Source: a virus
Direction: 5' to 3' (one strand)
Virus record (IMG/VR): IMGVR_UViG_3300000239_000014
Coordinates: 1-29,371 of that record
Length of the DNA: 29,371 bases
The notes under the pieces were generated by a model that was given only the letters and a program-made list of their open reading frames with translations, was not told where the DNA came from and did no database searches. Both the position numbers and the translations under genes were made by a program. Of this stretch, positions 4,160 through 27,628 are shown in pieces (position 1 is the first letter of the stretch; each line of letters starts with the position of its first letter).

Positions 4160-7100
4160 ATGTCAGAACAAGACAAAAAACCAGATTTTTCAGCTGGGTT
4201 AGGACTTCCTAAAAAACAGGAAGTAACCATACCTGATACTTTATCACTTAACTTTTCAGCTGGAGTTTCCCCGACTCCTACGGAAGTAGATACATATAAA
4301 TCTATAGATGATTTAACCCCTATAGACCTTGCTTCAAAATCTAAAGATGAACGCATAGGAGAGTTTTGGGATAAGTACTTACCTGACGTTTTAAAAGAAG
4401 GATATAACAACAGCATAGATGGTATTGCTAAAGAAATATTAACAGGTAACAAAAGATTTGGAGTTCCAAATAGAGATGTTGTTGATAGAGGTATTATGTA
4501 TGATATAGGCGTAGCGGCATCGTCTTTTCTTTTACCTACCCCTTCAAATATTGCAACATTAGGATTGGGTGCTGGTGCTGGTAAAGTAGCACAAATTGCG
4601 GGTGGAAGAAAAGCAACTGAATTTATAGCAAATACAATGATAAAAAAAGGGTTTATGTCAAAGGGTTCTAAAAAAGAATTTGTAGACAATGTTTCTAGAA
4701 TAGCTTTTACAGAAGCGGGTGCATTTGGAGCACAGGAAGGATTTTATACAGGAGCAGCTGAAATGAGAGATGCTGTAATAAATTCTGAATTTGATATATC
4801 TAAGTATCAAAAGATTAAAGATAAAAATAAAAGATATTTAGCAATAATGTCTGACATTGGAAAACAGTCTGACCCACTAGATTACTTGAGAGGTTATGGA
4901 GTTGGTGTTATAGGAGGAGCTGGTTTTGGTACTGCTAAATACGCTGGCACGGCTAATAAAGGAATTCTACTAAGCGGTAGAGCTAAAGGAAAATCTAGAG
5001 GAATTGAATCTGGAATTGCTGGAGAAATTGGAGCAATAATGGCTTCATCTGGACTTATATATGAAAGAGATTTTGATGCAGAACAAAATAGTCCTTTTAT
5101 GCAAAATTTTGTTCTAGCAGCAGGTATTGCATCTGCAGCTGGATTACCTAGAAGTACATTTAACTCTTTAAGAGCTTCTTATAAAAAAGGTAAAAGTATA
5201 CCTTTAACAGAGGTTGATGGAAAAATACTAAGAGGTTTAAATTGGGATGAAATATCAGAAATTATACCCGAATCTGTTGAGCTCCAAAGATATTTAAGAC
5301 AAGGTTCAGATGTGTTCAAAAGAGTATCAGAGCCTTTAATTAGGTTGACAGGAAGAAAAGGAGACCCTAAAATAACAGAACAGGTTTCTTTATCGATAAA
5401 AGATTTAAATAAAAAAAGATTACCTGCTGGTATGGCAAGTGGACCTTATGCTAACGTAGAAATAGTTGGCTCACCTGTAAAAACAGGAGGAAAGAAAGGT
5501 AAGATAACTGTAGAAACTAGAGCACCGGAACCTATTCCTACAAGCCTTGATGCAAAGATAGATAGAAAGAGCCTGGAAGTTACAGAAACTGGAGCTAAGT
5601 TTAATGTAAAGATTGGAAGAAATACATACGCTTTAGATGAAGTAAACTCAGAATTGTTTTTAAAGAATTATACCTCACAACCTACATTAGCTAAAAATTT
5701 AAAAGATAAAAACAGAGGTTATTTTGCTTTAACATTAGAAAGAAGAAGAGCTTTAAGACAACTTAGAGCCGACTCTAATGCCGGTAAAAATGGATTAGAA
5801 GAAGGAGATTATATAAGAGCTATAGAAAATACAGCTAATGAATATAATATTGAAAAATGGAGCAACTTAAAAGAACCTCCTAAGATAAAAGATATGACCG
5901 ACGTTGAACTTAGATTAGTAACAGAACAGTTTGGAGACATACAGTTTATTAAAAATCATGAAAATTTTATAAGAGATGAATTTGGTTCTGTAATAGATGA
6001 TATAACTGGAGTAGCAGGAGAATCTATTATTGTAAACTTTGGAAAAACATTAGTTGGTAGTTTAGGAAGTGATTTAAAAAGTCCTGCAGCTAGGACAGCT
6101 GTTAGACTTCTTTCTAAGTTAGATAGAAATATTGTTACTGCTGCTACTACAAGAATAACAGATTTACAAAAAGCAATTGGTATGGATACAGCTGTACTTA
6201 GTATGAGAAAAGTTCTTCCTAGATTCATGACAGGATATAATCCATTCAGAAATCAGAATATGGAAAATTGGATTGTTGGAAATAAAGTAGAACTTAGTAA
6301 TGGAAAAACAATACCTTCCGGTTTTGATGAATATAGATTGTTAGATGCAAATCCTAAGCACCTAATTACAATGAAATCTAATGCTACTAAAATGATTAAA
6401 AAAGGAAACCTAACAGATAAAGAAGTTTCTTTCTTACAAAGAAGAATAAAAACAGTAGAGCAGATAAAAACCATAATGGATGAGACTTACGACGATGCTA
6501 TAAAAGCAAAGATAAAGGTTGCTGGAAGAAAAGAATGGTACATGCCTTTTGTTATAAGTAAACCTATAAGAGATACTATTTATACTGAAACACTTTCCTT
6601 GAACGAAAAAATATCGAAACTTACTAGAGGAGACTTATCCCTAGACCCCGAAGTTGCTCTTAGGAATGCAGACGAAGCAACAAAAACAAAAATAAAGAAA
6701 AGCGTAGAAGACTTTGTTACTAAATTAGTCAAGTCTAATGACCCTAATAAAAAAGCTGTTGGAGAAATTTTTACTGAAACAAGAAGGATTTTAGATAGAA
6801 AAGGTTCTGTTTTATCAGACGTACCTGAGTATGATGTTTGGGCTGCTGTAAATGCTAATATATATACAGATGGATTTAAAGTATACGCTCCTCTTGAAAA
6901 ATCTAGAAAAGTAGTGGGTTCTGCTGGAACTATAGATATTGTAGCTGGACTTGTTGAGTCTAAGTCTAAGATGTTAGACAAAAACTTATTAACTCTTTTT
7001 ACAGACTATATAAATGGTTCTACAAAACGTATTGAACTATCAAAAACATTTATGCCAGACGGAGCATTTTTAGATAAATTAATTTCTAGAATACCGGAAG

Positions 7101-8878
7101 GAGCAGAGATGTCTGGAATTGGTGCTGCTATAGGAAGAAGGTTAGGAAAAAATTCTTTAAACAAAAAAACAGGAAGTGCTGATGTACCTGAGTTTATATT
7201 TAAGGAAAGAGATGCTGTTAGGTTGGTAAAAGAATCTATAACTGGTGAAGATGCTCTTACTAGACAAGGATTATTATCAAACGGACTTTATGCTGCTTCG
7301 GAATTTGAAATGTTAAGTAAAATATCTTTAGGTACAGCTACCATACCAAACATGACTCAGGCTTTTATATCTACAATACCTCAGTTGGGAGTAGGTTCTG
7401 TTGTAAGAGGATTAACTAATTACGTATTTAACCCTCAGGTTAGAGACATGGTAAAACAATCCGGAGTTACAGCTCTTTCTTTGTTTGATGAAATTTTAGG
7501 AGGTAGTAGAGCTTTACAGATTGGTCAAGCTAGGTTAATAAAATTTTCAGACCCTACTCAAGCTTTTATAAAAACTTTTAAAGGTGAAATGGGATTAAAA
7601 GATTGGTATACAATGGCAAAAGATTTTGCAGCAAAACCATTTATGGCAATTAATTTATTTAATAAAATGCAAGCTGGAGCTGCTGCTGAAGATTATATTA
7701 GAAAGCTAGTGATGATGTATGATGGAAAGATGGGGCTGGCTCAAAATTTAGAAGTTACTGCTACAATGCCTTTAATAAATAGAAAAGCTTATGCTAAGAA
7801 TAAATTAAAAAACACATTTGGAATAGATGCAGATGAAGCTTTGAAATATAAGAAATCTATTATAGATAGAACTTATAATCCCGCAAATGCTGGAGAAGCT
7901 CAAATGAAAAAAAAGATTTTAAGAGGTATGGAATCATATGCCAGTGACTCTCAACAAGGAAGAAACTTTGATAAAGATGCATTAGCTTTAAATGATTCTT
8001 ATTTTAAACCTTTTACGCTGTTTAAAAGATTCCCTATAAGACAATCTAAATATGCTCTTAAAATAGTTCAAGATGAAATGGCTAATGGAAATATATTATC
8101 TCCTCTTTATTTAGCAGCTAGTGGTGCTATTGGTGGCTCTATATCTTTAAAAGCTAGAGCAGATTTATTAAAATATATGTCAGGAGACTTGAGGTTTAAT
8201 AGCGAGGAAGAAAGAACTAAATACGTTCAATTGGGAACAGGAAAAGAAATTGCTTCTGCAATGGCTGCCGGAGGAGTTTTAGGTGCCTATGGAGATATAG
8301 TGGATAACAATGAACCTTTCAATGCTATATCTTTTTTAGTTAAACCCGTACTTCTTGATGACGCTGAAAGAATAGGAACTGTAGCACTAAATAGTATATT
8401 GAACTTTGCTACCAATGAACATGATTTAAATATACAGACTAGAAAAAATATGATAAAATTAGGACCTACTTTTGGAAGTATGATAAATGCATCACTATCT
8501 TGGTATGCATATAAAGGAGACCTTCCTGAATTTTTGGGAGGAGAAGGCAAGCCACCACCTAAACTATATAGAGACAATGCGGAAACCAGAAGAGGTTATG
8601 TATTCCAAGAGATACAAAGAATAATTCTTCTTGGCACTGGCCCAGGAACAGCTAAGTATGAAGACAATGCAGAAGCAGCTGCTAAGTTAGCTTCAGACTG
8701 GAATAAGTCTCAATACGTAAAAGATATCCCAGCTCTTGCAATTAATCCGTATGAAAATTCATTAAGGAATCCTTTTAATTCAAAATCCTTAAATAAAAAA
8801 TTTGTAAAAGAAGTGAATAAAAACAGAGAATATTACGAAGATAAAGACTTCGACATAACACAATACTTAGAGGACTAA
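4160..8878 (+). CDS. Very large (1572 aa) internal-virion-type protein
   Basis: At 4.7 kb this is the largest gene in the window. The N-terminus is polar and repeats FSAG twice (about residues 10 and 32). Residues about 115-330 contain several Gly/Ala-rich hydrophobic segments (for example GVGVIGGAGFGTAKYAG and NFVLAAGIASAAGLP) that could insert in membrane; the central and C-terminal parts are long charged helices, with another Gly/Ala-rich stretch near residues 1310-1390. This combination of huge size, hydrophobic patches and helices resembles the large internal virion or ejection proteins of podoviruses, which form a DNA conduit through the cell envelope. I see no catalytic motif. Position after the lysozyme-like gene supports the role, but homology is not established. 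Confidence 0.6.
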   Translation: MSEQDKKPDFSAGLGLPKKQEVTIPDTLSLNFSAGVSPTPTEVDTYKSIDDLTPIDLASKSKDERIGEFWDKYLPDVLKEGYNNSIDGIAKEILTGNKRFGVPNRDVVDRGIMYDIGVAASSFLLPTPSNIATLGLGAGAGKVAQIAGGRKATEFIANTMIKKGFMSKGSKKEFVDNVSRIAFTEAGAFGAQEGFYTGAAEMRDAVINSEFDISKYQKIKDKNKRYLAIMSDIGKQSDPLDYLRGYGVGVIGGAGFGTAKYAGTANKGILLSGRAKGKSRGIESGIAGEIGAIMASSGLIYERDFDAEQNSPFMQNFVLAAGIASAAGLPRSTFNSLRASYKKGKSIPLTEVDGKILRGLNWDEISEIIPESVELQRYLRQGSDVFKRVSEPLIRLTGRKGDPKITEQVSLSIKDLNKKRLPAGMASGPYANVEIVGSPVKTGGKKGKITVETRAPEPIPTSLDAKIDRKSLEVTETGAKFNVKIGRNTYALDEVNSELFLKNYTSQPTLAKNLKDKNRGYFALTLERRRALRQLRADSNAGKNGLEEGDYIRAIENTANEYNIEKWSNLKEPPKIKDMTDVELRLVTEQFGDIQFIKNHENFIRDEFGSVIDDITGVAGESIIVNFGKTLVGSLGSDLKSPAARTAVRLLSKLDRNIVTAATTRITDLQKAIGMDTAVLSMRKVLPRFMTGYNPFRNQNMENWIVGNKVELSNGKTIPSGFDEYRLLDANPKHLITMKSNATKMIKKGNLTDKEVSFLQRRIKTVEQIKTIMDETYDDAIKAKIKVAGRKEWYMPFVISKPIRDTIYTETLSLNEKISKLTRGDLSLDPEVALRNADEATKTKIKKSVEDFVTKLVKSNDPNKKAVGEIFTETRRILDRKGSVLSDVPEYDVWAAVNANIYTDGFKVYAPLEKSRKVVGSAGTIDIVAGLVESKSKMLDKNLLTLFTDYINGSTKRIELSKTFMPDGAFLDKLISRIPEGAEMSGIGAAIGRRLGKNSLNKKTGSADVPEFIFKERDAVRLVKESITGEDALTRQGLLSNGLYAASEFEMLSKISLGTATIPNMTQAFISTIPQLGVGSVVRGLTNYVFNPQVRDMVKQSGVTALSLFDEILGGSRALQIGQARLIKFSDPTQAFIKTFKGEMGLKDWYTMAKDFAAKPFMAINLFNKMQAGAAAEDYIRKLVMMYDGKMGLAQNLEVTATMPLINRKAYAKNKLKNTFGIDADEALKYKKSIIDRTYNPANAGEAQMKKKILRGMESYASDSQQGRNFDKDALALNDSYFKPFTLFKRFPIRQSKYALKIVQDEMANGNILSPLYLAASGAIGGSISLKARADLLKYMSGDLRFNSEEERTKYVQLGTGKEIASAMAAGGVLGAYGDIVDNNEPFNAISFLVKPVLLDDAERIGTVALNSILNFATNEHDLNIQTRKNMIKLGPTFGSMINASLSWYAYKGDLPEFLGGEGKPPPKLYRDNAETRRGYVFQEIQRIILLGTGPGTAKYEDNAEAAAKLASDWNKSQYVKDIPALAINPYENSLRNPFNSKSLNKKFVKEVNKNREYYEDKDFDITQYLED

Positions 8879-16546: not shown

Positions 16547-16635
16547 TATTTGTCTCCTTCTCTATCAATCTCTTCTAAGATGAATTTTGCGTAGACTAAT
16601 AATAAAAATACTAGAATTACTATTACGACACTCAT
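16546..16635 (-). CDS. 29-aa single-pass membrane mini-protein
   Basis: This 29-codon frame begins with a single hydrophobic helix (SVVIVILVFLLLVYAKFIL, residues 2-20) and ends with nine charged residues (EEIDREGDK). It overlaps the stop of GroES by four bases (ATGA) and the start of the next gene (TAATG), so coupling is strong. Such one-helix phage peptides can be holin accessories or modulators of host membrane proteins; no specific role is shown. Confidence 0.55.
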   Translation of the reverse strand: MSVVIVILVFLLLVYAKFILEEIDREGDK

Positions 16636-16904
16636 TTAGAATCCTCTAGTATAGCTAAGACTTCAGCTTCTCTCATTATCAAGTATTCTTCTCCGTCGGT
16701 ATATATAATAGTACCTGCATAATCTGGATATGTAATATAGTCGCCAGACTTAAGAGTCTCAACTTTCGGTCCCACTTCAAGGACTACTCCCTTATTTGGT
16801 TTCTTTTGAGTTTCAGAAGAAACTAAGATACCGCTATCCGTCTTCTCTTTTACTGCGTCTGCTTGTACTAGTAATCTATTATCTAATGGTTTTATTTTAT
16901 TCAT
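16632..16904 (-). CDS. groES: GroES-like co-chaperonin (Cpn10)
   Basis: The 90-residue protein is a clear Cpn10: IKPLDNRLLVQ at the N-terminus, the mobile-loop region EKTDSGILVSSETQKKPNKGVVLEVGP (20-46) with the hydrophobic tripeptide ILV that docks on GroEL, KSGDYITYPDYAGT, and YLIMREAEVLAIL at the C-terminus. The length is close to the usual 95-100. No GroEL gene is in the window, so it would act with host GroEL, as T4 gp31 does, to fold a phage protein such as a capsid protein. AGGAGG lies inside the end of the upstream gene. It sits among early-type mini-genes, not with virion genes. Confidence 0.9.
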   Translation of the reverse strand: MNKIKPLDNRLLVQADAVKEKTDSGILVSSETQKKPNKGVVLEVGPKVETLKSGDYITYPDYAGTIIYTDGEEYLIMREAEVLAILEDSK

Positions 16905-18162: not shown

Positions 18163-18213
18163 TCCAAAAAATAGCAGACAAAACCGATAAAAATGTCGAT
18201 TCTACCTGCTATT
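18163..18213 (-). terminator. Rho-independent terminator after the amidoligase gene
   Basis: Reading leftward, AATAGCAG (18213-18206) pairs with CTGCTATT (18177-18170), and the second arm runs straight into a T tract (CTATTTTTTGG). The hairpin begins 12 bases after the amidoligase stop. The loop is long (28 bases) with a small inner stem. It isolates the amidoligase unit from the promoter at 18051-18079. Confidence 0.6.
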
Positions 18214-18224
18214 CTCTTTTTATG

Positions 18225-19961
18225 CTACAAGGTATACTGGAGTAATTCCCTGTTTCTACCATGAACGTCAAATAGACTTCCAAGTTCACTTGCATAATAT
18301 GTGCTAGATATTAATGGATAGTCTATTAAAGGAAACTGACTACCTAAGCTATCTACGTATTTGAATGACATTGTCTTTTTGTCAAACTCTACTATGCTTG
18401 TTCTATTGTCAAAACACTTGTCTATATGTTCTTTATCTGCGTTTATCTCAACCATACGAGACTTCATAAATTCTGCAGTTTCGTCAGGTATGTTGAAAGT
18501 GTCAAATATATTACTAATAGACATTACTGCTTGTTGTGGTCTTGTTCTCACATGATTCAACATAGGTTGCAATAGATAAGGTTTATCTCTTTTTGGCAAT
18601 CTAAGATAACGTCGCATTTTCTCACTATCTGTCATATAACCCTTAATCGACACAGAATCTCTAGCATAGGTATTATTAGATTCCATCTCTCTTACCTTTT
18701 TGTCAATCGCTCTATTATACAACGATTTAAACATTCTAGACTGATTAAGGTTTGGGTCGTATGCAAACTCGTCACGCATACTCTGCCCTATTTCATAAGC
18801 AGTGTCTACGACATTAGACCAAAATATAGACCAGTGTCGCATTTTTTCGGGGTTCAATGTCCCTGCGTGGTATCTTATCTCTATACCTTGATTAGCCTGA
18901 AAATGAGAATGGAGATTAAATCCATGATAACGCTTGTCGTTATATTTGTCGTTAGTAAAAGAACCATTGTCATACCAAAAATCGACGAATGCATCTCTAC
19001 TTGTAATATAAGAGAAGTCGTTAAGCGACTGACTGACAGGCTTACACCACCTACCATTTAATCTAGAAGGAGGAACCCACATATAGACGTGAGGCTCTAT
19101 CAACTTAACTAGTAAAGTTAAGACAGAAAAATGATACCAGTCATAATCTCTGCAGTCTATATGTAAATGCATACCACAATGTCTACTTACGTAGGCACCA
19201 TTCGCATGCTTCAATACATCACATATCGTCTGAACGTCCTTATGAAGGATATCGCCTCGTCTAGGTTGCATAACTACTTCTGTCCCATACTCATGCTCTC
19301 CTCTTCTTACGGAGCCGTCTCCAGGAATATGTAGTCTACCTAAATGCCTATTGTCTTCAGGGTTGTTGCTTCCTAATATAGTATGGTCTATATTACATTT
19401 ATCTTCTAATCTACTTTGTGCTATAGACATATCTAATTCAAATCTCAAATTACCTTCATCTACATATTCATGGAAATTAGTCTCTATCTCAATTCCCATA
19501 TATCTTTTAGAAGGTATCAATTTAAATGTGTCTCTAGAGTAGTAGTCTTTTCGAGGACTAGTAAAAGACTCTGCAGTTTTAACGTATTCGTTAGAATATA
19601 CGTCCCATGAAGGATAATCGTCAGATGGTTGATAACAATCTTCGCAATAATATTCTCCTTCATTTTCGTCGTAGACAAAATTGTCATGAGTGTCTTCATG
19701 TCCACATTCATAACAAGTAGATATGTTCTCACTATAACAATCGTCGCAATAAGGGTCTGAATTAACCCAATAGATATTGTCTACATGGGTTGTTTCGTCG
19801 CATTCTCTACACATTGTGTAATCCTCGTCGCAACTCTGACATATTTCGTCGTTATCGGCATTATAAACCGGTTCGTCTGTAGTTATGTCTGTGCTACAAT
19901 CTGCACAACACTCAATTTCAGACTCTATCGCTTCGTTAATAGCTCTATCTGTCTGTGGCAT
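18225..19961 (-). CDS. Putative amidoligase (GS-like COOH-NH2 ligase) with N-terminal zinc ribbons
   Basis: The 578-residue protein has two parts. Residues 18-109 hold paired cysteines at 19/22, 41/44, 51/54, 72/75, 83/86 and 106/109, alternating with acidic residues, as in tandem LIM- or treble-clef-like zinc ribbons. Residues about 150-400 match the Amidoligase_2 pattern of the glutamine-synthetase-like COOH-NH2 ligases: YMGIEIET (154-161), GDGSVRRGEHEYGTEVV (214-230), HCGMHLHIDC (261-270) and IEIRYHAGTLN (360-370), which supply the metal and ATP ligands. Such enzymes join a carboxylate to an amine using ATP. The last 180 residues are unassigned. The gene overlaps the upstream class II amidotransferase by 17 bases, which suggests ammonia or an aminated intermediate is passed between them. 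The substrate is unknown; the zinc part could recognise a protein or nucleic acid. Confidence 0.85.
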   Translation of the reverse strand: MPQTDRAINEAIESEIECCADCSTDITTDEPVYNADNDEICQSCDEDYTMCRECDETTHVDNIYWVNSDPYCDDCYSENISTCYECGHEDTHDNFVYDENEGEYYCEDCYQPSDDYPSWDVYSNEYVKTAESFTSPRKDYYSRDTFKLIPSKRYMGIEIETNFHEYVDEGNLRFELDMSIAQSRLEDKCNIDHTILGSNNPEDNRHLGRLHIPGDGSVRRGEHEYGTEVVMQPRRGDILHKDVQTICDVLKHANGAYVSRHCGMHLHIDCRDYDWYHFSVLTLLVKLIEPHVYMWVPPSRLNGRWCKPVSQSLNDFSYITSRDAFVDFWYDNGSFTNDKYNDKRYHGFNLHSHFQANQGIEIRYHAGTLNPEKMRHWSIFWSNVVDTAYEIGQSMRDEFAYDPNLNQSRMFKSLYNRAIDKKVREMESNNTYARDSVSIKGYMTDSEKMRRYLRLPKRDKPYLLQPMLNHVRTRPQQAVMSISNIFDTFNIPDETAEFMKSRMVEINADKEHIDKCFDNRTSIVEFDKKTMSFKYVDSLGSQFPLIDYPLISSTYYASELGSLFDVHGRNRELLQYTL

Positions 19962-20973
19962 TAGCTTCCTCTTCCCATTTTAAGCTGTCGTAGTATTGTT
20001 CTTCAGATATCTGTTCTTCAGACTTTATTTCGCCTGAGACATTATCTAGAAAATACCACTCTTGCTGTGTTTCGTCCCAAAACCACTCCTCCGGTCTACC
20101 TCCGTAGACTTGTGATAGATGTAATGTCTCGTTATCTATCATAGACTGGGGAACTATAGGTTCCCATTCGTCGTCTGTAAGACTCCAGGCATTCGTCTGA
20201 ACTTGTGTTGGGTACTTGTTAATCTGATATTGATATACTCTAGAATCGTATTTAAATGATTCTTTGACTACATTCATTTTCTCGTCAGTAAACTTACTAA
20301 CGTCAAACGTGTAAAGTGTATTTTTATTTAAACTAAATACGTCTGCTTCAATGTTATTCATTGTCAATGCGTCCTCAATAAATTCCGATTCACTAGCATA
20401 AAATAACGTCTTCATTGACGGAATGTATGCCACGTGTAAAGGTCTATTACTTTCTCTACATAGATATAATACCATTGGATTTGCTTTGACAAAAGACAAC
20501 GCAAAGTCTGAGTCAAAATCTTTGACTGCTTCTTGTATGTTGTCGTTGTCGTTAATTGCTTTAAATATCAATTGAGAGTCTACCGGACATTGTTTGTCTA
20601 ATTGAGTCTCCATTTCTTTGACATTGTAAACACAGCCATTATGAGCACCGACGACGTCGCCTACTCTGAAAGGGTGTGCATTTGATTTGACTATTGCTCC
20701 TTGTGTAGCAAAACGCGTATGTCCTAGCAATATAAATGAATCGTCTTTTAATGACTTAACAGACTCGTTATATTCCAAAGTGTCTACAAATTTACTAGAC
20801 GGCAATAGTGACTTGTGAATCCTAGTCGAACTACCGACTCTTGCAATTCCTGACGATTGACTACCTCTAGTCTCGCTATCTATTGCAATTTCCCTTAATA
20901 CCTTTTTGACAATATTTAATTGCTTCGTAGTATAAGGTGTCGGTGATTTCGCTATTCCATATATTCCACACAT
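19945..20973 (-). CDS. Class II glutamine amidotransferase (Ntn-type)
   Basis: The 342-residue protein starts MCGIYGIAKS, so removal of Met exposes the catalytic Cys2. Further class II marks are ETRGSQSSGIA (34-44), GHTRFATQG (84-92), NAHPF (98-102), GAHNG (109-113, the oxyanion-hole Asn-Gly) and VDSQLIF (131-137), as in GlmS and PurF glutaminase domains. It releases ammonia from glutamine. Unlike GlmS, the remaining 130 residues contain no sugar isomerase domain but an acidic, Trp-rich tail (EEWFWDETQQEWYFLDN). The acceptor is probably the amidoligase encoded directly downstream with a 17-base overlap. AGGAGA precedes the ATG. Confidence 0.9.
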   Translation of the reverse strand: MCGIYGIAKSPTPYTTKQLNIVKKVLREIAIDSETRGSQSSGIARVGSSTRIHKSLLPSSKFVDTLEYNESVKSLKDDSFILLGHTRFATQGAIVKSNAHPFRVGDVVGAHNGCVYNVKEMETQLDKQCPVDSQLIFKAINDNDNIQEAVKDFDSDFALSFVKANPMVLYLCRESNRPLHVAYIPSMKTLFYASESEFIEDALTMNNIEADVFSLNKNTLYTFDVSKFTDEKMNVVKESFKYDSRVYQYQINKYPTQVQTNAWSLTDDEWEPIVPQSMIDNETLHLSQVYGGRPEEWFWDETQQEWYFLDNVSGEIKSEEQISEEQYYDSLKWEEEANATDR

Positions 20974-24417: not shown

Positions 24418-24726
24418 ATGAAAGAAAAAACAATGGGATTACACATAGGTGGTCATGATTATAGTATATTAGAGCTATCATTAGAACATGAGGACAGTAG
24501 TAAAGAATTATACGGAAGACACCTAGTAAAAGAGAATTTAATACTTATTAACAAAGATATCCATGATTCAAGAAAGAAAGAGACATTGATGCATGAGATA
24601 TTACACGCATTGTTCTATAATTATGGCTTAGAGCACGATGAGAGTAAAATAGATGCAATCTCTAATGGATTGTTTCAACTGGGAGTAGCAGAGTTCTTAT
24701 GGAAGAAATCACAAAAAAAATCATAA
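24418..24726 (+). CDS. Zincin-like metallopeptidase (HExxH), ImmA/IrrE-like
   Basis: The 102-residue protein contains LMHEILHALFYNYG (57-70) with the zinc motif HEILH (59-63), preceded by strand LILINKDIH and followed by ESKIDAISNGLFQLG, where Glu75 or Asp80 may be the third ligand. This compact layout is typical of the ImmA/IrrE and related phage zincins, which cleave repressors or regulators. GGGAG lies before the ATG, and it is the first gene of the rightward unit. No partner repressor is recognised, so the target is unknown; processing of a phage or host protein is inferred. Confidence 0.7.
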   Translation: MKEKTMGLHIGGHDYSILELSLEHEDSSKELYGRHLVKENLILINKDIHDSRKKETLMHEILHALFYNYGLEHDESKIDAISNGLFQLGVAEFLWKKSQKKS

Positions 24727-24857
24727 AAGCAAAAAATGAGAAGAATTATAGTCTAGTTCAGAAATTACAGCAAGAAGTAGATATATTAAGACGATTAGAA
24801 GATAAACCCGATATGGAGGATTTTCCAAAACATGGAACAAAAAAAGACAACAGCTGA
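24699..24857 (+). CDS. 52-aa coiled-coil mini-protein
   Basis: A 52-codon frame overlaps the peptidase gene by 28 bases and the next gene by 26, filling the gap between them. The product is highly charged and heptad-like (KNEKNYSLVQKLQQEVDILRRLEDKPD). GGAG at 24816-24819 inside it serves the next gene. Coupling and composition favour a real gene. Confidence 0.5.
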   Translation: MEEITKKIIKAKNEKNYSLVQKLQQEVDILRRLEDKPDMEDFPKHGTKKDNS

Positions 24858-25191
24858 GAATGTAGTATTACATATAAAAGATAACTTTCCTGAAACAGAA
24901 CAAGAATTTCAAAAGATACTTAATACTATGTATATGACATTTTGTAAAAAACAATTTGACTACGGTCCTGGCAATATTGCTATGGGAACTCAATTAAAAT
25001 CAGAGGAAGAAGTCAATATAGCCTTATTAGGTATTATAGTAAGGTTGAATGATAAGATAAACCGACTAGTTAACCTATCAACTAAACATAACTTCAAGGC
25101 ACAGAATGAGCCTATAGAAGACGCGTTTTTAGATACTGCTGTATATGCAGTGATGGCGTTAATAGTCAAAAACCAGAAATGGGGTAAATAA
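24832..25191 (+). CDS. DUF1599-like protein (nucleotide-modification-associated type)
   Basis: The 119-residue protein has TFCKKQFDYGPGNI (about 32-45), GIIVRLNDKINRLVNL (about 66-81), and EPIEDAFLDTAVYAVMAL (about 96-113). The order K..DYG, R-x2-DKI-x-R, and E-D-x3-D-x3-Y matches DUF1599, named nucleotide-modification-associated domain 1, an all-alpha family found in phages and tied by gene context to nucleotide metabolism. The Glu and Asp residues could bind metal and a nucleotide, as in MazG-like enzymes, an alternative family. GGAG precedes the ATG. No other base-modification gene is obvious here. Confidence 0.6.
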   Translation: MEQKKTTAENVVLHIKDNFPETEQEFQKILNTMYMTFCKKQFDYGPGNIAMGTQLKSEEEVNIALLGIIVRLNDKINRLVNLSTKHNFKAQNEPIEDAFLDTAVYAVMALIVKNQKWGK

Positions 25192-27070: not shown

Positions 27071-27233
27071 ATGTCATATATGTCACTATCATCTTAAAAA
27101 GACTGGTGTTTATATATGGGATGCTCGTAAAAAAGATTGTAGCGGTATTAAATGTTTTAACTGTTTAACCATCTATTCTCCAAAATTTTTAATTATGGAG
27201 ATGGGAATACCTAATACGGTAGGGTATTCTTGA
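27006..27233 (+). CDS. 75-aa zinc-finger protein overlapping terS
   Basis: The ATG at 27006 lies 65 bases inside terS in another frame and has a good ribosome binding site, AAGGAG with eight bases between. The first 20 residues are basic; then CHIC (23-26) and CFNC form a zinc-ribbon pair around VYIWDARKKDCSGIK. The stop overlaps the next ATG (TGATG). A packaging or DNA-binding role is possible from location only. Confidence 0.6.
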   Translation: MQFKNPNTKNWLKLKQISKKNRCHICHYHLKKTGVYIWDARKKDCSGIKCFNCLTIYSPKFLIMEMGIPNTVGYS

Positions 27234-27628
27234 TGAGGTTGGCTGTATATGGAACACTTAGAAGAGGATATCCCGATACTGGTAAAGTAGAAGGATTTAG
27301 TTTAGTTTTTCCCGGAACACAATCTTTTCCAGCTGTTATTAAAAATGAAAAAGGAAAGGGTGCTGTAGTTGAGTTAGTAGATGTTACATTAGAAGACCTT
27401 AATATGTACGATGAATATGAAGGTGTAGCAAATGGGCTATATATAAGAACAACAGCTCCTATTAATATGGATGACGGAAAAACAGAGAAAGCTTGGATAT
27501 ACGTAGCTGGTCCACAACTTTGGGCAAGTTCTAGTTCCTTTACAGAAGTTCCTGATGGTGATTGGCACTCAATAAAAACATTACAAATGTTAGATAGGGT
27601 TTATGAAAAAGAATTCCAAGAAGCCTGA
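27233..27628 (+). CDS. Gamma-glutamylcyclotransferase-like (AIG2/BtrG fold) protein
   Basis: The 131-residue protein begins RLAVYGTLRRG, the substrate-loop signature YGTLRxG of the GGCT/AIG2 fold, and has the catalytic-Glu region NMYDEYEGV (57-65, Glu63 most likely). Family enzymes release pyroglutamate from gamma-glutamyl amines or finish aminoglycoside side chains (BtrG). A TTG one codon earlier is a possible start, but ATG 27233 overlaps the previous stop. It overlaps TerL by 26 bases. Although 6 kb from the amidoligase and amidotransferase, it would complement them by trimming gamma-glutamyl groups. Confidence 0.8.
   Translation: MRLAVYGTLRRGYPDTGKVEGFSLVFPGTQSFPAVIKNEKGKGAVVELVDVTLEDLNMYDEYEGVANGLYIRTTAPINMDDGKTEKAWIYVAGPQLWASSSSFTEVPDGDWHSIKTLQMLDRVYEKEFQEA

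Follow-up and report, generated by a model that had tools for sequence, protein, structure and literature searches.

In the window analysed here, the whole 29,371-base viral record IMGVR_UViG_3300000239_000014, a GS-like amidoligase and a stand-alone class II glutaminase are encoded by two overlapping genes, and the same DNA carries a gamma-glutamyl cyclotransferase (GGCT). This set is a reduced variant of a known phage cassette rather than one that is new in kind. The reading that we favour, and hold to be moderately probable, is that the pair forms a two-subunit, glutamine-dependent amide-forming ligase and so constitutes a reduced version of the phage peptidoglycan cassette. Sequence data revealed that cassette years ago while its substrate is still guessed. 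What was observed directly, and is described below, concerns the domains, the intact state of the active sites, the order of the genes, the selection on them and their co-occurrence.

The gene pair

The glutaminase gene comes first and is followed on the same strand by the amidoligase gene (Table 1), and the ORF coordinates confirm the overlap of 17 bases that had been reported in a sequence-only reading of this DNA. Purifying selection acts on each of the three genes, with dN/dS values of 0.28-0.35 for the amidoligase against near relatives, 0.12-0.27 for the glutaminase and about 0.08 for the GGCT. A near-identical contig of 56.9 kb, which shows 99.9% identity over the window, encodes a P22-type portal and SU10-type capsid proteins and this fits a podovirus-like relative of the cassette phages.

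Table 1. Positions in the window of the gene pair, its sub-features and the GGCT gene.
Feature	Position	Strand	Size or basis
Class II glutamine amidotransferase (stand-alone Ntn glutaminase), 5' gene of the pair	19945..20973	-	342 aa; PF13522 E=1.1e-14
Overlap of glutaminase and amidoligase genes	19945..19961	-	17 bases
Amidoligase_2 (GS-like COOH-NH2 ligase) with N-terminal zinc-ribbon modules (predicted)	18225..19961	-	578 aa; PF12224 E=7.9e-21; phrog_2443
Three tandem CxxC-x(17-19)-CxxC modules, amidoligase residues 19-109; predicted zinc ribbons/LIM-like	19635..19907	-	Cys conservation
GS-like catalytic core, amidoligase residues about 153-390	18792..19505	-	invariant residues, 27 amidoligases
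Terminator-like hairpin and T tail directly 3' of amidoligase gene	18168..18215	-	consensus match only
GGCT/AIG2-like gamma-glutamyl cyclotransferase, upstream of and overlapping terminase gene	27230..27628	+	PF06094 E=9.5e-15

The amidoligase

The description of the first enzyme as a GS-like COOH-NH2 ligase carrying six CxxC pairs was borne out by profile match, active-site residues and the Cys pairs. A Pfam profile search matched residues 155-382 to Amidoligase_2 (PF12224) with 75.5 bits against a curated cut-off of 22, and PHROGs agrees with Pfam on both members of the pair. The window ligase was aligned with 26 other, widely divergent phage amidoligases. The His, Glu and Arg ligands, the loss of which had been named as a point against the assignment, are intact in all 27 sequences (E158, E160, E228, H265, H267, E361 and R363), as are D215, S217 and N349, and R300 is conserved in 26. 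Twenty-five relatives retain the Cys pairs as well as the GS-type residues. The catalytic roles of individual residues, here and in the glutaminase, we take to be those generally known from GS and class II amidotransferases.

The predicted structure of the ligase (mean pLDDT 78) gave no Foldseek match at E<=1e-3, a marginal result that weighs against the favoured reading. The best eight PDB matches are all of the GS fold, with YbdK first, at E=1.5e-3 at best and with low TM-scores. YbdK/GCS2-type ligases and the EgtA-EgtC enzymes of ergothioneine synthesis would resemble the window pair in the GS-like fold predicted for its ligase and, in the Egt case, in having a class II Ntn partner. The window ligase has in addition a C-terminal domain and the zinc modules, and shows no sequence-level match outside Amidoligase_2.

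The glutaminase

The second enzyme had been read as a glutaminase with all the marks of class II and no synthase domain of its own, and it proved to be so. GATase_6 (PF13522) is its closest Pfam family, matched with 55 bits against a cut-off of 27, and the class II set is complete, comprising an N-terminal Cys nucleophile, a glutamine-binding Arg, an NG oxyanion pair, an Asp and the Ntn fold. Cys2, R87 (in GHTRFAT), the NAHPF motif, H111-N112-G113 and D132 are invariant in all 20 glutaminases aligned. Solved relatives found by sequence are PurF-like. The predicted structure (mean pLDDT 79) clearly matches GlmS/GFAT (E=7.9e-13) in Foldseek, as well as PurF and EgtC (E about 2e-9). In one relative (L030:8001-9059 / G003) the glutaminase gene has a single in-frame TGA and the ligase is intact.

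EgtC is a gamma-glutamyl hydrolase, which cleaves gamma-glutamyl amides and donates no ammonia. Since the fold of the window protein also matches EgtC, donation of ammonia by the glutaminase is likely rather than certain. Of the earlier suggestion, which was modelled on known families in which such glutaminases feed a partner, the domains, sites and strict pairing are supported, while the feeding itself would be a further step. The main rival explanation begins at this point. It is a gamma-glutamyl on/off pathway, which we consider rather unlikely as a whole. The amidoligase would link the gamma-carboxyl of glutamate to an amine, in the manner of EgtA or PuuA; the class II Ntn protein would be an EgtC-like gamma-glutamyl hydrolase and the GGCT a second remover, with no transfer of ammonia. 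The structural match to EgtC is consistent with such a pathway, as is the rank of YbdK, which is glutamate-cysteine-ligase-like, as best match of the ligase. So is the distribution of the GGCT, which the clade conserves and which in Faecalimonas and Bacillus phages occurs alongside amidoligases where no GATase is present. However, the GATase matches the glutaminase domains of GlmS/GFAT and PurF better than it matches EgtC, and its closest Pfam family being GATase_6 also argues for a glutaminase.

Co-occurrence of ligase and glutaminase

The pairing of the two enzymes is more than chance. A ligase homologue lies directly after the glutaminase gene in 40/40 related viral loci with room downstream, and an adjacent glutaminase is present at 74 of the 77 loci found through the ligase profile alone, so that the survey of gene neighbourhoods proposed in the sequence-only reading found the two genes together. 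As many of these 40 and 77 loci are close relatives, 19 annotated phage records from several families with a related GATase were also surveyed, a sample that is slightly biased in that a few were chosen for an amidoligase or GGCT already apparent in the match. Amidoligase_2 was present in 18 of the 19, within about 4 kb of the GATase gene, and a GGCT in 12. This sample includes phages of Escherichia, Pseudomonas, Vibrio, Proteus, Aeromonas, Rhizobium and Arthrobacter, and the association of ligase and GATase is therefore wide. When a genome collection was searched with the ligase profile one relative only was recovered, in an Elusimicrobia MAG (L091:4611-7382). This Amidoligase_2 protein has 29 overlapping CxxC motifs and the next gene encodes a class II GATase.

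The GGCT gene

The GGCT matches PF06094 with 55.7 bits against a cut-off of 22.8, and a YGTLRRG motif and D-E-Y-E-G are visible in its sequence; a search by sequence for solved relatives of the protein found none. Each of the 39 relative contigs extending to this locus keeps the gene. Membership of the pair's operon was rejected, as the gene lies some 6.3 kb from the pair on the other strand, in the transcription unit of the terminase genes, and this lack of co-transcription counts against the favoured reading. It had been proposed that ammonia release, amide formation and gamma-glutamyl trimming are combined in one phage. The GGCT is real and conserved, and the domains are supported, but the three do not share an operon and a functional link of the GGCT to the pair is what we infer.

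Relation to the known cassette and to other systems

Sets of GATase and ligase genes in phages have been named the ‘peptidoglycan modification cassette’ (PMC5498523, PMC11945000) and this established phage enzyme set also appears in PMC3890496. The idea is traced to Iyer et al. 2009, a study cited by PMC10580990. The biochemical reading made from the sequence alone is a good one, but the set that it describes is not new. Alteration of peptidoglycan by the cassette is a hypothesis in this literature (PMC5498523, PMC11945000), in which no biochemical or genetic test of the cassette was found.

The full cassette consists of GGCT, glutaminase, COOH-NH2 ligase, amidoligase and ATP-grasp genes and occurs in phiEco32-, PA11-, LUZ24- and RIO-1-like phages. 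The larger set of GATase, COOH-NH2 ligase, Amidoligase_2 and ATP-grasp was seen in Vibrio phage 1.293.O, ctwe8250, PA11 and SU7, mostly with a GGCT, PA11 being without one. The cassettes of phiEco32/SU7/PA11/LUZ24/RIO-1-like phages share with the window an Amidoligase_2 and a class II GATase encoded near each other, a GGCT in many cases, an early or replication-side location and zinc-type CxxC modules on one partner. They differ in that two enzymes are added, an ATP-grasp and a COOH-NH2 ligase (PF14395), and many of them carry the Cys modules on the GATase C-terminus and not on the amidoligase. PF14395 gave no match in five contigs of the clade (43-57 kb), the completeness of which is uncertain, and a RimK profile detected no ATP-grasp there, whereas four full-cassette phages were positive for the former and gave weak matches to the latter. 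It is likely that both enzymes are truly absent from the clade. As neither was found, the product cannot equal the multi-linkage structure of the cassette, which counts against the favoured reading. In this clade the cassette is pared down to a GGCT and a two-gene operon whose ligase bears the zinc modules, and comparison of the two-gene set with the five-enzyme cassette points to the ligase and its glutaminase as the core steps.

Arthrobacter phages Ottawa and Edmundo have the same three enzymes as the window, in the order GGCT, amidoligase, GATase, and a COOH-NH2 ligase was not found in them. Unlike the window, they have these genes in a single block that the GGCT opens, with the ligase preceding the GATase, and their ligase of about 330 aa is without CxxC modules. 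The OM43 phages MEP401/402 and metagenomic relatives are described in PMC10580990 as having PF12224 and PF13522 genes, regarded as auxiliary metabolic genes of unproven role. These are marine phages and their likeness to the window is one of domain content.

A parallel in function is MurT-GatD of Staphylococcus aureus, two co-transcribed genes that are responsible for peptidoglycan amidation (PMC3267633). The likeness to the window is a functional analogy and lies in adjacent genes for a glutaminase and an ATP-dependent ligase and in glutamine-dependent amidation. The folds are unrelated, MurT-GatD being of Mur-ligase type with a class I GATase and the window pair GS-like with class II. On the best reading, the window pair would be MurT-GatD-like in logic and not in ancestry.

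Proposed mechanism and the role of the Cys modules

In the two-subunit ligase that we favour, we infer the formation of a complex, the transfer of ammonia within it, and the substrate and purpose of the reaction. The class II glutaminase would release ammonia from glutamine and the GS-like amidoligase would use ATP to activate a carboxylate, which then reacts with this ammonia or some other amine. Docking of the partner or of the substrate is the probable task of the ligase's three zinc-ribbon modules. The GGCT, supplied from the packaging-side transcription unit, may take off or recycle gamma-glutamyl groups that arise in the pathway or near it. Because the window set is a reduced peptidoglycan modification cassette, the likeliest substrate would be the peptidoglycan stem peptide or its precursor.

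The modules themselves are built from six CxxC pairs (C19/22, 41/44, 51/54, 72/75, 83/86 and 106/109). Ten of the 12 Cys are strictly invariant in 25 relatives and the other two nearly so. Apart from these Cys the region is the fastest-changing of the ligase, with 60% identity between the window and L018 against 90% for the GS core. Searches by sequence for solved relatives of the ligase returned weak LIM matches only, which fall in the Cys modules. A canonical LIM domain was rejected, as the spacers between modules are of 6-7 residues where LIM needs exactly two and the PF00412 match does not reach its cut-off.

CxxC modules are missing from the ligases of those full-cassette phages that were checked, and in PA11, SU7, Proteus, Aeromonas BUCT695 and other phages modules of the same kind are found at the GATase C-terminus. 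In a sister group (L150, L151, L152, L154, L155, L156, L160, L161, L163 and L166, with L159 and L167 truncated) a single GATase with C-terminal Cys modules, as in L150, L155 and L163, is flanked by two ligases with N-terminal modules. On a common origin of the GATase and ligase modules the result was divided: a profile of ligase residues 14-116 scored above all 50 Cys-preserving shuffles in some GATase C-termini (L152, L163, L166, Proteus, BUCT695, IME271 and, narrowly, Phriendly) and did not do so in others such as L150, L155 and phiEco32. These variants, with one ligase or two and with modules on either partner, provide a testable idea of the role of the modules. A bolder reading, which we regard as unlikely, is a distinct lineage of phage amidation systems in which the ligase is held by fast-changing zinc-ribbon modules either to its glutaminase or to a host target that varies, and one or two ligases per glutaminase make amides on a substrate other than peptidoglycan.

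Two further explanations are less likely than the amide-forming ligase acting on peptidoglycan. Amidation or aminoacylation of a modified base of the phage genome by the pair is very improbable. An ORF resembling DUF1599, the ‘nucleotide modification associated domain 1’, at 24832-25191 (+) would agree with it (PF07659 E=1.5e-4, below cut-off; present in 15/16 relatives), but no thymidylate-synthase-like, TET/JBP, glycosyltransferase or 7-deazaguanine gene was detected in a scan of the larger ORFs of the window and the 56.9-kb contig. Conjugation of a small phage peptide to target proteins, as Pup is conjugated by PafA, is scarcely to be expected: the weaker structural matches of the ligase include the depupylase Dop and zinc modules could recruit protein substrates, but no small ORF beside the pair is conserved clade-wide, two upstream small ORFs occurring in 7/16 and 4/16 relatives, and the search for a conserved tiny ORF beside the pair that could serve as peptide substrate found none among 16 relatives.

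Other features of the window

A 1572-aa ORF at 4160-8878 (+) has no PHROG or Pfam match. A phage GroES-like co-chaperonin is encoded at 16632-16904 (-) (phrog_3188 E=2.9e-22) and was found by tblastn in 3/16 relatives. Positions 1-179 of the window match a second place in the near-identical contig (G001 411-588) with 88% identity and represent a short repeated segment. The ORF at 24418-24726 (+) encodes a 102-aa HExxH protein that is Peptidase_M78/IrrE-like (E=5.9e-6) and is present in all 16 relatives.
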